35,044 nucleotides of DNA from a virus. Both the position numbers and the translations under genes were made by a program. The stretch is from positions 1 through 35,044 of IMG/VR virus record IMGVR_UViG_3300036944_000227. One strand, given 5' to 3'. This document shows positions 19,918 to 28,609 of this stretch, piece by piece. Each line of letters begins with the position of its first letter. Positions within the stretch are counted from its first letter, which is position 1. The notes beneath the pieces are model-generated. The model was not told the DNA's origin. It did no database searches and saw nothing but the letters and a program-made list of their open reading frames with translations.

Positions 19918-20237
19918 GTGTTCCCCCTTGCTCGGATGGCGTTGGCAAGCGATTTGGCAGCAGCAAGCGTTTCAAACATGTGTGCTTCCGCTTCCACGGC
20001 CTTTGCACACGCCTCACGCTCTGCCTTGCGCTCCTCTTCCAACCGACCTGCAAAGCACCGTGCAACCCAGTCAATGAAGACCTTGGCGCTCTCCTCTGCG
20101 TCACCAGTAAACACCAGTGCAGGGCCGTTGAAGTCCAGCTTGCCGATCTCTTTGCCGTTGTTGTGAAGGCTAATGTTGTAGTTGGGCTTGATGTCACGGA
20201 AAGCAAACTGCCCGTAGCCTTGTTCAATTTCATCCAT
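19914..20237 (-). CDS. Accessory protein, beta start and helical end
   Basis: 107 residues from ATG 20237, preceded by AAGGAG; the reading frame continues upstream to 20270 but that part overlaps the previous gene too deeply. Start and previous stop overlap by 8 nt. The N-terminal half is strand-rich (YNISLHNNGKEIGKLDFNGP, ALVFTG), and the C-terminal half is a charged Glu/Ala/Arg helix. I do not recognise a family with confidence; similar proteins occur in phage early regions. Expression with the surrounding early small genes is likely. Confidence 0.6.
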   Translation of the reverse strand: MDEIEQGYGQFAFRDIKPNYNISLHNNGKEIGKLDFNGPALVFTGDAEESAKVFIDWVARCFAGRLEEERKAEREACAKAVEAEAHMFETLAAAKSLANAIRARGNT

Positions 20238-20847
20238 TGTTCTTCTCCTTGAGTTTGGTTTCGACCGCATCTATAAGTGGAAGTGTTCGTGCGTAATGCT
20301 CTCGCCTAATTTCTGTGCGCTCCTCATCCGTCAGCCCAACCCATTGCCGCTGTGCTGCGGGTGGGGTGGTGTAGAGGGCATCGAGCGCAGCGGAATATTC
20401 GGCGTAGTCGGCATCACTGCTGAGATTGTTCCGCAAGAAGCGATCAACCATGTCGTATGCAACACTCGCCACAGGCTCCTGCACAGGTGCTGCAAGGGCT
20501 TGCCACTGTGCTGCGGGTGGGGTGTATCGCTCGCCAGCGGGCTCAAGGGTGTGACCGTTTGCGAGAATGTCGCAAACAATCGTGCGCTCGGGGTCACGCA
20601 TCTTGCTTTGCCACTGTTGAAGCGCATCGGCGCGGCGCTTGTAAAAGTCCAGCGAACTCAGAGCATCGTCCAACTGCTCTTGAAGCGTCGGCTCCTGCAC
20701 AGGTGCTGAACGGGCTTGCTTGATGGCGGTGATGGCTTCGTCCAGTTGAAAACATTCATGCGGGTGCAAAAAGTCTCTGTCGTTGTCGCACAAGTCAATG
20801 TATTCCAACGCCTCCAGCGCCAAGTCGAGTGCTTCGTCTTTGGTCAT
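20230..20847 (-). CDS. Repeat-built accessory protein (PPAAQ / APVQEP modules)
   Basis: 205 residues. It opens with MTKDEALDLALEALEYIDLC, a start common to small early proteins in beta-proteobacterial phages (the gene at 22977-23132 opens in a similar way). It contains repeated short modules: APVQEP at about residues 48-53 and 120-125, and YTPPAAQWQ / YTTPPAAQRQW. These are backed by repeats in the DNA (19 bp at 20474-20492 and 20690-20708; 18 bp at 20351-20368 and 20507-20524). The ending VGLTDEERTEI is a unit I recall from other Burkholderiales phage proteins. It seems to have grown by shuffling of modules. Function unknown. Confidence 0.6.
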   Translation of the reverse strand: MTKDEALDLALEALEYIDLCDNDRDFLHPHECFQLDEAITAIKQARSAPVQEPTLQEQLDDALSSLDFYKRRADALQQWQSKMRDPERTIVCDILANGHTLEPAGERYTPPAAQWQALAAPVQEPVASVAYDMVDRFLRNNLSSDADYAEYSAALDALYTTPPAAQRQWVGLTDEERTEIRREHYARTLPLIDAVETKLKEKNNG

Positions 20848-21525: not shown

Positions 21526-21546
21526 GGGGCCAGTGGCCCCGTTTTT
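21526..21546 (+). terminator. Rightward intrinsic terminator inside the leftward operon
   Basis: GGGGCC (21526-21531), loop AGT, GGCCCC (21535-21540), then G and five T. This is a 6-bp all-GC stem with a T run on the plus strand only. On the minus strand the stem is followed by ACCTTTC, so it should not stop the leftward transcript. It lies in a 40-bp gap between two leftward genes and would end rightward readthrough from the endolysin gene, which has no terminator of its own. Confidence 0.6.
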
Positions 21547-21790: not shown

Positions 21791-21830
21791 TGCGATGACT
21801 GAATCATAACATCATTTCCCACAATCTCAC
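21791..21830 (-). promoter_or_regulatory. Leftward promoter region with shared TTATGATTC motif
   Basis: The gap 21767-21856 is AT-rich beside GC-rich genes. On the minus strand it carries TATGAT (21803-21808), a good -10 match, within TTATGATTC (21801-21809). The same 19-nt layout, TTATGATTCNNTCANNNCA, occurs at 28531-28549 before the other leftward start. A convincing -35 is not visible: TTGTGT lies 20 bases upstream of the -10, a wide spacing. It would drive 21766 to 19592. Confidence 0.45.
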
Positions 21831-24225: not shown

Positions 24226-25814
24226 TCCCAGCTCCTTTTCATCACTCTAAAAAATTTCCCGTCCTTGCGATACTCGATCAGCTTCGGCGGCGTGGCGTTG
24301 TTCATGTTCTGCACCATGTCGATCATGGCTTGCACTTTCAGACCACCAGGCACAATGCTGGCGCTGTTCGCAATACTCAGCAGCAGTCCCATCGCTCTTT
24401 GGCCAGCGTAGCCCTCGTGCATGATCGGCAAGTATTCAGTGATCGGCGGGTCACTCAGCCCCCCGTAATACGTCACCGCCAGCATCTTGATGCCAGATGC
24501 TCGGCTCGTATGTTCACGCCAGGCCCAGCTGCTCACTTCCAGCTCTTGCCCCTCCAGCCCCATGATGTCGTCATTGCGCAGCACCATCGCCTTCTTCACA
24601 GGCTCGGGGAACTGCTCACCACACGACGGGCAGGTCATCACCGAGATGTGCACCAGCTCCCCACAGTGGTCGCACACCTTCACTGGCGCCTCACCCTCAC
24701 CATCGCTGCTCGACTTCTTCGGCGGCTGCACGTTCGTGATCGGCCCATGGGTCTCCACCACCCCAGCAAAGTCCAGCACCAGGCAGTGATCGGTGTGGCT
24801 CTTGACCCTCATGCCCCTGCCGGCCATCTGCACATAAAGGCTGGCGCTCATGGTGGGGCGCAGCATGGCCACCAGGTCGATGTCGGGATAGTCAAAGCCA
24901 GTCGTCAGAACATTGGCATTCGTCAGCGCGCGCAGTCGCCCAGCTTTGAAGTCGGTCAGGATGCGCTCGCGCTCCTTCTTCGGGGTTTCGCCAGTCACAC
25001 ACTCAGCAGCCACCCCCTGCTGGCGCAGGGCTTCGGCCACGTGCTGCGCGTGCTGCACACCAGCACAAAAGAACAGCCAAGCCTTGCGCTCTCCAGCCAG
25101 CGCCACCACCTCGCGCACCACAGCCTGATTCTTGTCGTCCGTGTCCAAAGCAGCTTGCAACTCAGATTCGATGAACTCTCCTCCGCGCTTCTTCACGCCA
25201 GTAACATCCAGCTTGGCCTTGGTGATCTTCGAGCGCAGCGTGGACAGATACCCCTTGAACACCAACTCCTCGATGCTCACAGGCGTCAGCAGATCATCAA
25301 ACATCGCAGGCTTGTCAGTTATCAGGCCATGCCCCAAGCGGTACGGCGTGGCCGTCAGGCCAATCACGCGCAGGCTCGGGTTGATCGCTTTCAGCTCGGC
25401 CAGCAGCTTGCGATAACCGCCCTCGTCTTTGTGGTTGACCAAGTGGCACTCGTCAATGATCACCAGGTCGATGTGCCCCAGCTCTCGCGCCTTGCTCCGC
25501 ACCGACTGAATGCCAGCAAACGTGATCGGCTCCCCCAAGTCCTTGCGGCCAATGCTCGCGCTGTAGATCCCCATCGGTGCCCCAGGCCAGTGCTGGCGCA
25601 TCTTTTCAGCGTTCTGCTCGATCAGCTCCTTCACATGGGTCAGCATCAGCACACGGGTTTCGGGCCAGTTCTGCAAAGCATCCTTGCACAGCGCGGCCAC
25701 AATGTGCGACTTGCCAGATCCAGTCGGAAGCACCAAGCAGGGATTGCCCAAGCCACCGGCCTCGAACCAGGCATACAGCTGGTCGATGGTGCGCTGTTGG
25801 TACTCTCTCAGCAT
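24222..25814 (-). CDS. SF2 DNA helicase with zinc ribbon
   Basis: 530 residues. ATP-driven DNA helicase of the DEAD/H-like SF2 type. Motif I PTGSGKS (30-36), motif II DECH (121-124), motif III TATP (154-157) and motif VI QMAGRGMR (329-336) are all intact; the Q-like start REYQQ is at 3-7. After the helicase core comes a zinc ribbon with Cys381, 384, 395 and 398 (CDHC, CPSC), then a C-terminal domain of about 130 residues. It follows the exonuclease gene with one-base overlap and belongs to the recombination/replication group; it may unwind recombination intermediates. UvsW-like or Type III restriction-like helicases are the nearest general class. Confidence 0.9.
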   Translation of the reverse strand: MLREYQQRTIDQLYAWFEAGGLGNPCLVLPTGSGKSHIVAALCKDALQNWPETRVLMLTHVKELIEQNAEKMRQHWPGAPMGIYSASIGRKDLGEPITFAGIQSVRSKARELGHIDLVIIDECHLVNHKDEGGYRKLLAELKAINPSLRVIGLTATPYRLGHGLITDKPAMFDDLLTPVSIEELVFKGYLSTLRSKITKAKLDVTGVKKRGGEFIESELQAALDTDDKNQAVVREVVALAGERKAWLFFCAGVQHAQHVAEALRQQGVAAECVTGETPKKERERILTDFKAGRLRALTNANVLTTGFDYPDIDLVAMLRPTMSASLYVQMAGRGMRVKSHTDHCLVLDFAGVVETHGPITNVQPPKKSSSDGEGEAPVKVCDHCGELVHISVMTCPSCGEQFPEPVKKAMVLRNDDIMGLEGQELEVSSWAWREHTSRASGIKMLAVTYYGGLSDPPITEYLPIMHEGYAGQRAMGLLLSIANSASIVPGGLKVQAMIDMVQNMNNATPPKLIEYRKDGKFFRVMKRSWE

Positions 25815-26845
25815 CAGGCCACCACCCTTCCACCAAACTGCTTTCGCATGTCGTGCAGCTGCGTCCAGCCTTTGTCCGCGCAGGCAGCAGCATTGGCCAG
25901 CAGCTCACGCGAACTGAACACGCCCTCGATCTCAGGATCTCCATTGGCCACATTCGTGCCATTGATCTCGTACACGGCAGTGTAATCGTCCGGCCCATCC
26001 TTGCGCTGCCACGGCACCAGATCAGGGTGCAGCACATGACCCTCGCAGCCGGTACGCTGGGCATCCACCGGGATCACAGAATCCCACTTGGCGCAGTGCC
26101 AGGTCGAGTCCGACAACGGGGTCGCCATCGCGCAGGTGCGGCAGTTCACATGCTCGGTCGTCTTGGTGTAGGCACAGAACTGCGACGCATCACAGAACTT
26201 GCACTGATACCAGGTCGCAGGGTCAGCACTGATCGGCTCTGGCATCCGGTCACTCAGGGCAATGCGCTGGCCTCGCGCAATAGCAGGCAGCGCCACATCT
26301 TTGTCGAACTTCACACGCTCGGTGTGAATCCGGTCATCATCCTTGCAAACGGCCAGGTACAGCGCACGGTCCAAACCAGTCCCGGCCATGTAAACCTGCA
26401 TCTGCACAAAATGCTCGGGCTTCGACTTCTCCACGCCATCCTTCACCAGAGCATCAAAGGATTTTTTGGAATGGGTCTTGAACTCGGCCACGTGCTTGGT
26501 CTTCGGGGCATCAGGCACGCCAGAGTCGATGATCGCGTCCAGAGATCCAGACACATGGCTGCCAAAGTCAACACGGTGCTGGCTCGACACCTTGCGCACA
26601 TCCATGCCGATCGCACGCAAGTCGCTGATGATCGTGGCCTCCTCATTCTGCCCACGGCGGAACAATCGCAGGATGCGGCCAGGGAAAAACGGCTGCACCG
26701 CCCAGCGAAACGACAACCACAGCCAACGGTCGCAAGGGTGGCCCAGCCCACTGGCCCCCATGTGAGGGCGAGGCTCCTCCTTCTTGGCCTCATGCGCTTT
26801 GTCAATCAAGGCCTGGATGGTATGCTCTGACTCGGGAATCTTCAT
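25814..26845 (-). CDS. PD-(D/E)XK exonuclease with Cas4-like cysteine cluster
   Basis: 343 residues from ATG 26845, with AAGGAG upstream; an in-frame extension to 26893 has no ribosome site. Nuclease motifs: Asp103 in GSLDAI, Glu121-x-Lys123 in AEFKTH, and Gln148 in VQMQVYM. Cys38 (HPCDRW) together with Cys215, Cys218 and Cys224 (CKFCDASQFC) makes the Cas4/AddB-type 4Fe-4S arrangement. Four more Cys (235, 238, 251, 267) may form a second metal site. With the Sak4-type recombinase upstream it likely serves as the 5'-3' end-resecting nuclease of a phage recombination pair, as lambda Exo does with Beta. Confidence 0.85.
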   Translation of the reverse strand: MKIPESEHTIQALIDKAHEAKKEEPRPHMGASGLGHPCDRWLWLSFRWAVQPFFPGRILRLFRRGQNEEATIISDLRAIGMDVRKVSSQHRVDFGSHVSGSLDAIIDSGVPDAPKTKHVAEFKTHSKKSFDALVKDGVEKSKPEHFVQMQVYMAGTGLDRALYLAVCKDDDRIHTERVKFDKDVALPAIARGQRIALSDRMPEPISADPATWYQCKFCDASQFCAYTKTTEHVNCRTCAMATPLSDSTWHCAKWDSVIPVDAQRTGCEGHVLHPDLVPWQRKDGPDDYTAVYEINGTNVANGDPEIEGVFSSRELLANAAACADKGWTQLHDMRKQFGGRVVA

Positions 26846-26866
26846 GTTGTCTCTCCTTTGAGAATT

Positions 26867-26900
26867 TGCCCAGGCCTTCAACAGCCTAGGCATTTTTTTT
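26867..26900 (+). terminator. Rightward intrinsic terminator inside the leftward operon
   Basis: TGCCCAGGC (26867-26875), an 8-nt loop, GCCTAGGCA (26884-26892; 9-bp stem with one wobble pair), then eight T (26893-26900) on the plus strand. On the minus strand the hairpin is preceded by A's and followed by AAATTCTC, so it does not fit a leftward terminator. It lies in the gap between the DUF669-type gene and the exonuclease ribosome site. It should stop rightward transcripts running antisense to the early genes. Confidence 0.7.
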
Positions 26901-26902
26901 GC

Positions 26903-27409
26903 TTACTTCTTAGCCCAAGGCGGCGCGGCCTTCGCGGTGGCAGCCTGAGCAGCCTCGGCCTGCTTCACAAAAGGCGGCACAGCAGCGGCAGCCGGTGCAG
27001 CACTTCCAGACATAGACTTGAAGCCCTTTACCTCGTTGCTTGCGCCATACTGCGCGTCTTGCTTCACATCCAGCTTGATCGACAGGCTGTTACCAATCAA
27101 CTGGTCGGTGTCCGTGACCTTGGCCAAGCCGATCGCACGCATGATGTCCCCCAGCTGCTGGCGGCCAATCTCCTCAGCCTTCTGGTTCGGGTTTTTGATG
27201 TTCAGGTTGCCAAACACCACACGGCCTTGGTGGGTCGGGCCCGTCACGTCGTAGCGCAGCTTGATGTACTGGCCATTGCCTGCCTTGGTGTCCTTCAGCT
27301 CGGCCTGAGTGATCGTCACCGTGTACCAACCAGCTGGCAGCGGGTCAAAGTTTCCACCAGTGCCCTGGGGCAGTTCGTTGACGTCAAATGCTTCGTTGAG
27401 AAATGCCAT
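26903..27409 (-). CDS. DUF669-family protein, probable ssDNA-binding partner
   Basis: 168 residues. The core (FDPLPAGWYTVTITQAELKD, GQYIKLRYDVTG, and IGLAKVTDTDQLIGN) fits the phage DUF669 family, an OB-fold-like group found beside Sak- and Sak4-type recombinases. The last 35 residues are an Ala/Pro-rich flexible tail ending PPWAKK; SSB proteins also end in a flexible tail with an aromatic tip, though that tip is acidic (DDIPF) and this one is basic. Binding of single-stranded DNA is inference from family context. The AAGGAG ribosome site lies in the last codons of the preceding gene. Confidence 0.7.
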   Translation of the reverse strand: MAFLNEAFDVNELPQGTGGNFDPLPAGWYTVTITQAELKDTKAGNGQYIKLRYDVTGPTHQGRVVFGNLNIKNPNQKAEEIGRQQLGDIMRAIGLAKVTDTDQLIGNSLSIKLDVKQDAQYGASNEVKGFKSMSGSAAPAAAAVPPFVKQAEAAQAATAKAAPPWAKK

Positions 27410-28481: not shown

Positions 28482-28609
28482 GATTGGCTCTCCTTTTCTT
28501 TGTTTGCACCACTGTCAGGGAATCTGTTTGTGGTGTGATCGAATCATAAACCATTTTTTAAGGTAATATCCACACATCGAAAGATTTTTTTTCAACAGGA
28601 GAAACCAAC
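28482..28609. promoter_or_regulatory. Divergent control region between the two blocks
   Basis: A 128-bp AT-rich gap. Leftward: TATGAT (28543-28548) inside TTATGATTC, with the 19-nt layout shared with 21791-21809; I cannot name a good -35. Rightward: TAATAT at 28564-28569 is a possible -10, but no -35 stands out, followed by a T run at 28585-28592 and the AGGAG ribosome site at 28597-28601. A DnaA-box-like ATATCCACA (28566-28574, one mismatch to TTATCCACA) overlaps the latter. Both gene blocks depend on this stretch. Confidence 0.55.

Follow-up and report, generated by a model that had tools for sequence, protein, structure and literature searches.

To our knowledge, phage antisense RNAs have been described from a few model phages, where they act mostly on lysis-lysogeny genes. 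The sar RNA of phage P22 covers the ribosome site of its target in an intercistronic region and carries an intrinsic terminator at its end, while the OOP RNA of phage lambda pairs with the 3' end of cII. A passage of PMC12197685 (citing Wu et al. 1987) describes sar as a phage-encoded antisense RNA of 68/69 nt, which pairs with the ant mRNA and blocks the initiation of its translation. OOP, a short (77 nt) phage antisense RNA to cII, is transcribed from its own promoter, pO, and promotes the degradation of the cII mRNA through RNase III (PMC12197685). Here, we describe a phage locus in which a terminator that faces against its operon probably marks the end of an RNA of this kind.

The locus is part of the 35,044-base virus record IMGVR_UViG_3300036944_000227 in IMG/VR, which was analysed from position 1 to 35,044 and is referred to as the window in the following. 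Rightward genes in its left part include those for a head scaffolding protein and an endolysin. A leftward operon extends from a divergent control region at ~28.5-28.6 kb down to ~20.2 kb and encodes a Sak4-like annealing protein, DUF7173, the ssDNA-binding-like DUF669, a Cas4-domain exonuclease, a helicase and some smaller genes. Toward the right end lie rightward genes, among them those for a transcriptional regulator, a Toprim/AAA protein and a terminase. The convergent last genes overlap at 20230-20252, and no terminator was found there. On the minus strand, two leftward promoter-like sites (28543-28572 and 21803-21830) share the motif TTATGATTC around their -10 elements, and the latter might serve as a separate promoter for the final part of this operon. 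The exonuclease gene begins with an ATG at 26845, and its end is overlapped by the helicase gene; the DUF669 gene also matches PHROG 6015, single strand DNA binding protein. The features around the start of the exonuclease gene are:

26903..27409, minus strand: DUF669 gene (ssDNA-binding-like), upstream of the exonuclease gene in the same operon (PF05037, E 3e-16)
26893..26900, plus strand: terminator T tract; in relatives, the first three positions are T in 107-111 of 111, the next four are T with few C
26867..26892, plus strand: predicted terminator hairpin of the antisense RNA, the same DNA forming a hairpin in the exonuclease mRNA leader (from sequence, folding and covariation)
26853..26858, minus strand: exonuclease Shine-Dalgarno site AAGGAG, within the span of the predicted antisense RNA (from sequence)
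26834..26899, plus strand: predicted antisense RNA of ~66 nt; putative start 7-8 nt after the -10 element, putative end in the T tract
25814..26845, minus strand: Cas4-domain exonuclease gene, predicted antisense target (PHROG 1990, E 2.8e-95)
26818..26826, plus strand: extended -10 element TGG-TATGCT of the antisense promoter, opposite exonuclease codons 7-10; 171 of 204 distinct relatives have it in register
26799..26804, plus strand: -35 element TTGTCA of the antisense promoter, opposite exonuclease codons 14-16; TTGTCA in 103 of 169 relatives with both parts, weaker variants elsewhere

Between the DUF669 stop codon and the exonuclease start codon, the plus strand reads TGCCCAGGC-CTTCAACA-GCCTAGGCA-TTTTTTTT (26867-26900; site 2), a GC-rich stem-loop followed directly by a T tract, as is typical of intrinsic (Rho-independent) terminators. 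The original prediction had placed a wrong-way terminator with a 9-bp stem and eight T residues between these two genes. Its position and orientation were correct, and both the hairpin and the run of eight T are real, but in the rightward RNA the nine stem positions comprise eight Watson-Crick pairs and one C.A mismatch (26871/26888). In the leftward mRNA, a G-U pair forms at this position, and the hairpin is more stable, at -17.9 kcal/mol versus -9.8 kcal/mol as rightward RNA. Because of this mismatch, which nearly all relatives lack, a simple terminator scanner missed the site. When both strands of the whole window were scanned with a d'Aubenton-Carafa-type score, only two sites exceeded d = 0, namely site 2 (d = 24.1) and site 1 at 21526-21540 (d = 2.0). 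Sixty dinucleotide shuffles of the window yielded two sites with d of at least 24.1, or ~0.03 per window by chance. Judged by its sequence, site 2 is a real rightward intrinsic terminator, and by far the best in the 35-kb window. Site 1 reads GGGGCC-AGT-GGCCCC-GTTTTTGTT (21526-21545, plus strand) and, like site 2, closely precedes the Shine-Dalgarno site of a leftward gene.

Scanning contigs of IMG/VR and GTDB yielded relatives with 208 distinct exonuclease 5' regions. These relatives are not independent, and the clustered and tree-based tests used below correct for their kinship in part only. Contigs from MAGs that carry them are labelled Methylococcaceae and beta proteobacterium. We found no cultured phage of this clade, the nearest ones having at most 59% exonuclease identity and neither promoter nor terminator. 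Hairpin and T run are kept in about 175 distinct relatives with covariation of base pairs, so that the conservation on which the original prediction had made itself dependent is indeed observed. Among the loci over 9 kb, 48 of 51 have an antisense-facing terminator in the gap between the DUF669 and exonuclease genes, which outscores all others of its locus in nearly every case; d in relatives is mostly 25-54. In 38 hairpins that share one geometry, standard pairs fill 98.4% of the cells and seven of the eight pairs change on both sides; none of 500 shuffles was as good, and slid registers came nowhere near in paired cells or covariation score. On the rightward strand, the stem is followed almost exclusively by T, with few C, which fits the requirement of an intrinsic terminator. 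The hairpins contain 28 G-U pairs as antisense RNA versus 48 as mRNA, with a mean dG of -17.9 and -18.9 kcal/mol, respectively, and 79 of 174 loops have a YUNR (U-turn) motif.

Some other readings of the same DNA were considered and discarded. Ribosomal frameshifting or slippage on the A tract fails because the DUF669 stop codon precedes the tract and no frame runs through it, and an alternative exonuclease start at 26893 is not kept in relatives with other leader lengths. A protein operator formed by the inverted repeat is at odds with a loop that varies from 3 nt to ~20 nt and a stem that covaries, unlike a dimer site, and a leftward terminator would need a T tract on the other side, where it is absent.

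Forty bases upstream of the hairpin, on the opposite strand of the first 17 exonuclease codons, lies a sigma70-type promoter sequence (26799-26826, plus strand) of the form TTGTCA-N16-TATGCT, with a TG one base before the -10 element. It is the sole site in the whole window that combines an extended -10 with a -35 element. In relatives, the -10 element stays in register, ending 19 bases before the end of the start-codon complement; it occurs as TATGCT, TATGAT, TATTAT or TATACT and, chiefly in a more distant clade in which the -35 element is weak, as TAATCT, TAATAT or TAACCT. The promoter is maintained despite differing amino acids at codons 7-9 (E-H-T, D-H-S, E-I-T and N-N types). With synonymous codon resampling in divergent representatives as the measure of chance, it was found in 25 of 26 representatives with less than 55% codon identity, versus 5.1 expected, and in 11 of 12 with less than 45%, versus 2.3 expected. 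In representatives lacking the terminator, it is at chance level (1 of 14, versus 1.4 expected). Single promoter codons show a strong third-base excess, yet other early exonuclease codons show excesses too, and sliding windows of synonymous constraint over the exonuclease gene gave no peak at its 5' end. The information thus lies in the particular promoter positions and in the in-register test.

As comparison of the relatives establishes, promoter and terminator are linked. Both are present in 170 of 204 relatives and neither in 24; one has the promoter alone, and nine have the terminator alone, i.e. no -10 element in register, which counts against the antisense explanation. On a stricter count, a Fisher test gives 6e-20, uncorrected for phylogeny. 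On the tree, six supported independent pairs have the promoter going with the terminator in 4.6 and opposed to it in 0.1, for a sign-test p of only ~0.06, because there were few independent losses. Of the terminators in the loci over 9 kb, all 48 in this gap are preceded within 110 bases by an extended -10 and a -35 element, versus none of the 34 elsewhere in these loci. Rearranged loci provide natural experiments. Where a gene or an RNA-like element is inserted between DUF669 and the hairpin (L029, L150, L107, L116 and L060), the unit remains with the exonuclease gene; in L026, whose hairpin is separated from the exonuclease by an intervening gene, this promoter is lost. Two relatives whose hairpin has no T tract (L047 and L027) have likewise lost the -10 element. 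It is lost, too, in six relatives with a different leader (L054, L132, L141, L145, L063 and L057). This second leader type, TTTTCGGGGG..ATGCGTACTCC..GGCTTWATGAGGCAAG..CCCCCACC, replaces antisense promoter and terminator entirely.

The gap between DUF669 and exonuclease is also an insertion spot for extra genes (L026, L029, L043, L226 and L309). In several relatives, an element of 66-107 nt directly follows the DUF669 stop codon (L107:3053-3140, L210:1854-1942, L286:22-120, L306:1839-1945, L150:1888-1986 and L024:1718-1789). It has the form TTTT(C)GGGGG-GAAAGCGGATGC-[variable tip]-GCAGCGAGTA-CCCCC-ACC, with fixed outer stem and core. The variable tip is tRNA-like in L286 and L150, scoring 27.7 bits with a tRNA model in L286 (threshold 29). 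The element matched no Rfam family at threshold and is possibly an undescribed structured or mobile RNA. A short palindromic terminator, GCGCCTTYTNAGGCGC-TTTT, recurs in some relatives in the leftward direction, ~4.5-5.7 kb after the exonuclease start and near the expected end of the operon (L120:10529-10544, L053:12259-12274 and L049:11860-11875, all plus strand), which the window does not have.

Since the terminator has a conserved promoter 40 bases upstream, it would end a short antisense RNA rather than stop long readthrough. Taken together, site 2 is probably the terminator of a dedicated, conserved small antisense RNA gene, which likely represses translation of the exonuclease. The predicted transcript, 62-96 nt long in 174 relatives (median 71.5), would have its own promoter opposite the target strand, as expected of an RNA of the sar type, and would span exonuclease codons 1-4, the start codon and the Shine-Dalgarno site (together 26843-26858) as well as the leader hairpin, before ending in the T tract. 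Around the exonuclease start, it would match the leftward mRNA with perfect complementarity. We infer its transcription and start point, the formation of a duplex and the timing of its action in infection, repression being read from the geometry. A repression of exonuclease translation like that of ant by sar appears most likely, in the simplest case by acting on initiation. The complementary loop of the mRNA leader hairpin could start the pairing by meeting the terminator loop of the antisense RNA, and the duplex would then spread across the exonuclease ribosome site, so that translation of the exonuclease and the overlapping helicase gene would drop in comparison with that of the annealing and ssDNA-binding genes upstream. 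The promoter lies within the leftward operon and may therefore be kept inactive as long as early leftward transcription is strong; speculatively, the RNA would act as that transcription declines.

The original prediction had instead seen the two sites as a joint design, a defence against antisense readthrough into the divergent control region. According to this explanation, site 2 would halt long rightward transcription, from the late operon or stray antisense, before it reaches the first operon genes and the control region. Both terminators of the window do face right within the leftward operon, and the overlapping convergent genes have no terminator between them, so that some guarding against late readthrough is possible as a side effect of site 2. 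A guard, however, could do without a promoter 40 bases upstream, whereas promoter and terminator are in fact retained or lost as a unit. The design also lacks support for its second element: site 1 is weak and has no antisense promoter, and relatives showed no comparable antisense terminator at the corresponding position, which leaves site 2 as the only conserved antisense-facing terminator of the two. We consider it unlikely that defence is the main purpose. The hairpin might also serve the sense RNA, as had been suggested for a 5' hairpin ahead of the exonuclease ribosome site, in processing, stabilizing or tuning the translation of the leftward mRNA, with an incidental T tract. In the leader, it does closely precede the Shine-Dalgarno site; it has the greater stability in its mRNA form (by ~1 kcal/mol on average in relatives), and it persists in the two relatives without T tract. 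But these two have lost the -10 element as well, an unstructured mRNA spacer would not need a rightward tract of almost pure T/C, and the conserved antisense promoter would be left unexplained. While the hairpin may have a role in the mRNA, such a role as the whole explanation seems decidedly improbable.

The same transcript could also resemble the betaproteobacterial 'toxic' sRNAs of family RF02278 (bdhR1, S17-like; on coli growth, PMC11722255, PMC7011215, PMC5688073) and, by means of its anti-Shine-Dalgarno stretch, act mainly in trans on other mRNAs. Full-length matches to this family fall exactly on the unit (L060 34.1 bits, L107 30.4, window 22.5), but they stay below its curated threshold of 50 bits, and the standard Rfam search of the window gave nothing at gathering threshold. 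What matches is a generic layout of CU-rich stretch and terminator in which the first hairpin of RF02278 is not formed consistently, and CUCCU is present in any antisense to a Shine-Dalgarno site. We regard a mainly trans-acting RNA as highly improbable. It is rather unlikely, too, that the cis-antisense RNA acts in trans in addition, by mimicking RF02278-like anti-Shine-Dalgarno sRNAs of the host in betaproteobacterial cells or by silencing the exonuclease of related superinfecting phages; if it did, a cis-antisense gene would double as a host-control or exclusion RNA.

In the literature searched, which was not exhaustive, no antisense RNA was described as controlling a Cas4-type exonuclease of a phage. 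The antisense unit proposed here, on a recombination nuclease, has comparative support from some 170 distinct environmental phage sequences, including natural losses. This suggests that an antisense RNA sets how much exonuclease is made relative to annealing protein, and that wrong-way terminators inside phage operons may be read as the ends of antisense genes. With RF02278, the predicted RNA shares a CU-rich, anti-Shine-Dalgarno stretch with a GC-rich terminator behind it; that family, however, is trans-encoded on bacterial chromosomes and has a double hairpin, whereas the RNA predicted here would be cis-antisense and has a single constant hairpin. Like OOP, it would be a short phage antisense RNA with its own, here predicted, promoter, but it would cover the start of its target and not the 3' end. 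The nearest model is sar, likewise a short phage antisense RNA over the ribosome site of its target with a terminator. The target of sar is an antirepressor, while here it would be a recombination exonuclease in a system known from sequence alone, and the likeness is one of arrangement, with no sequence relation claimed.
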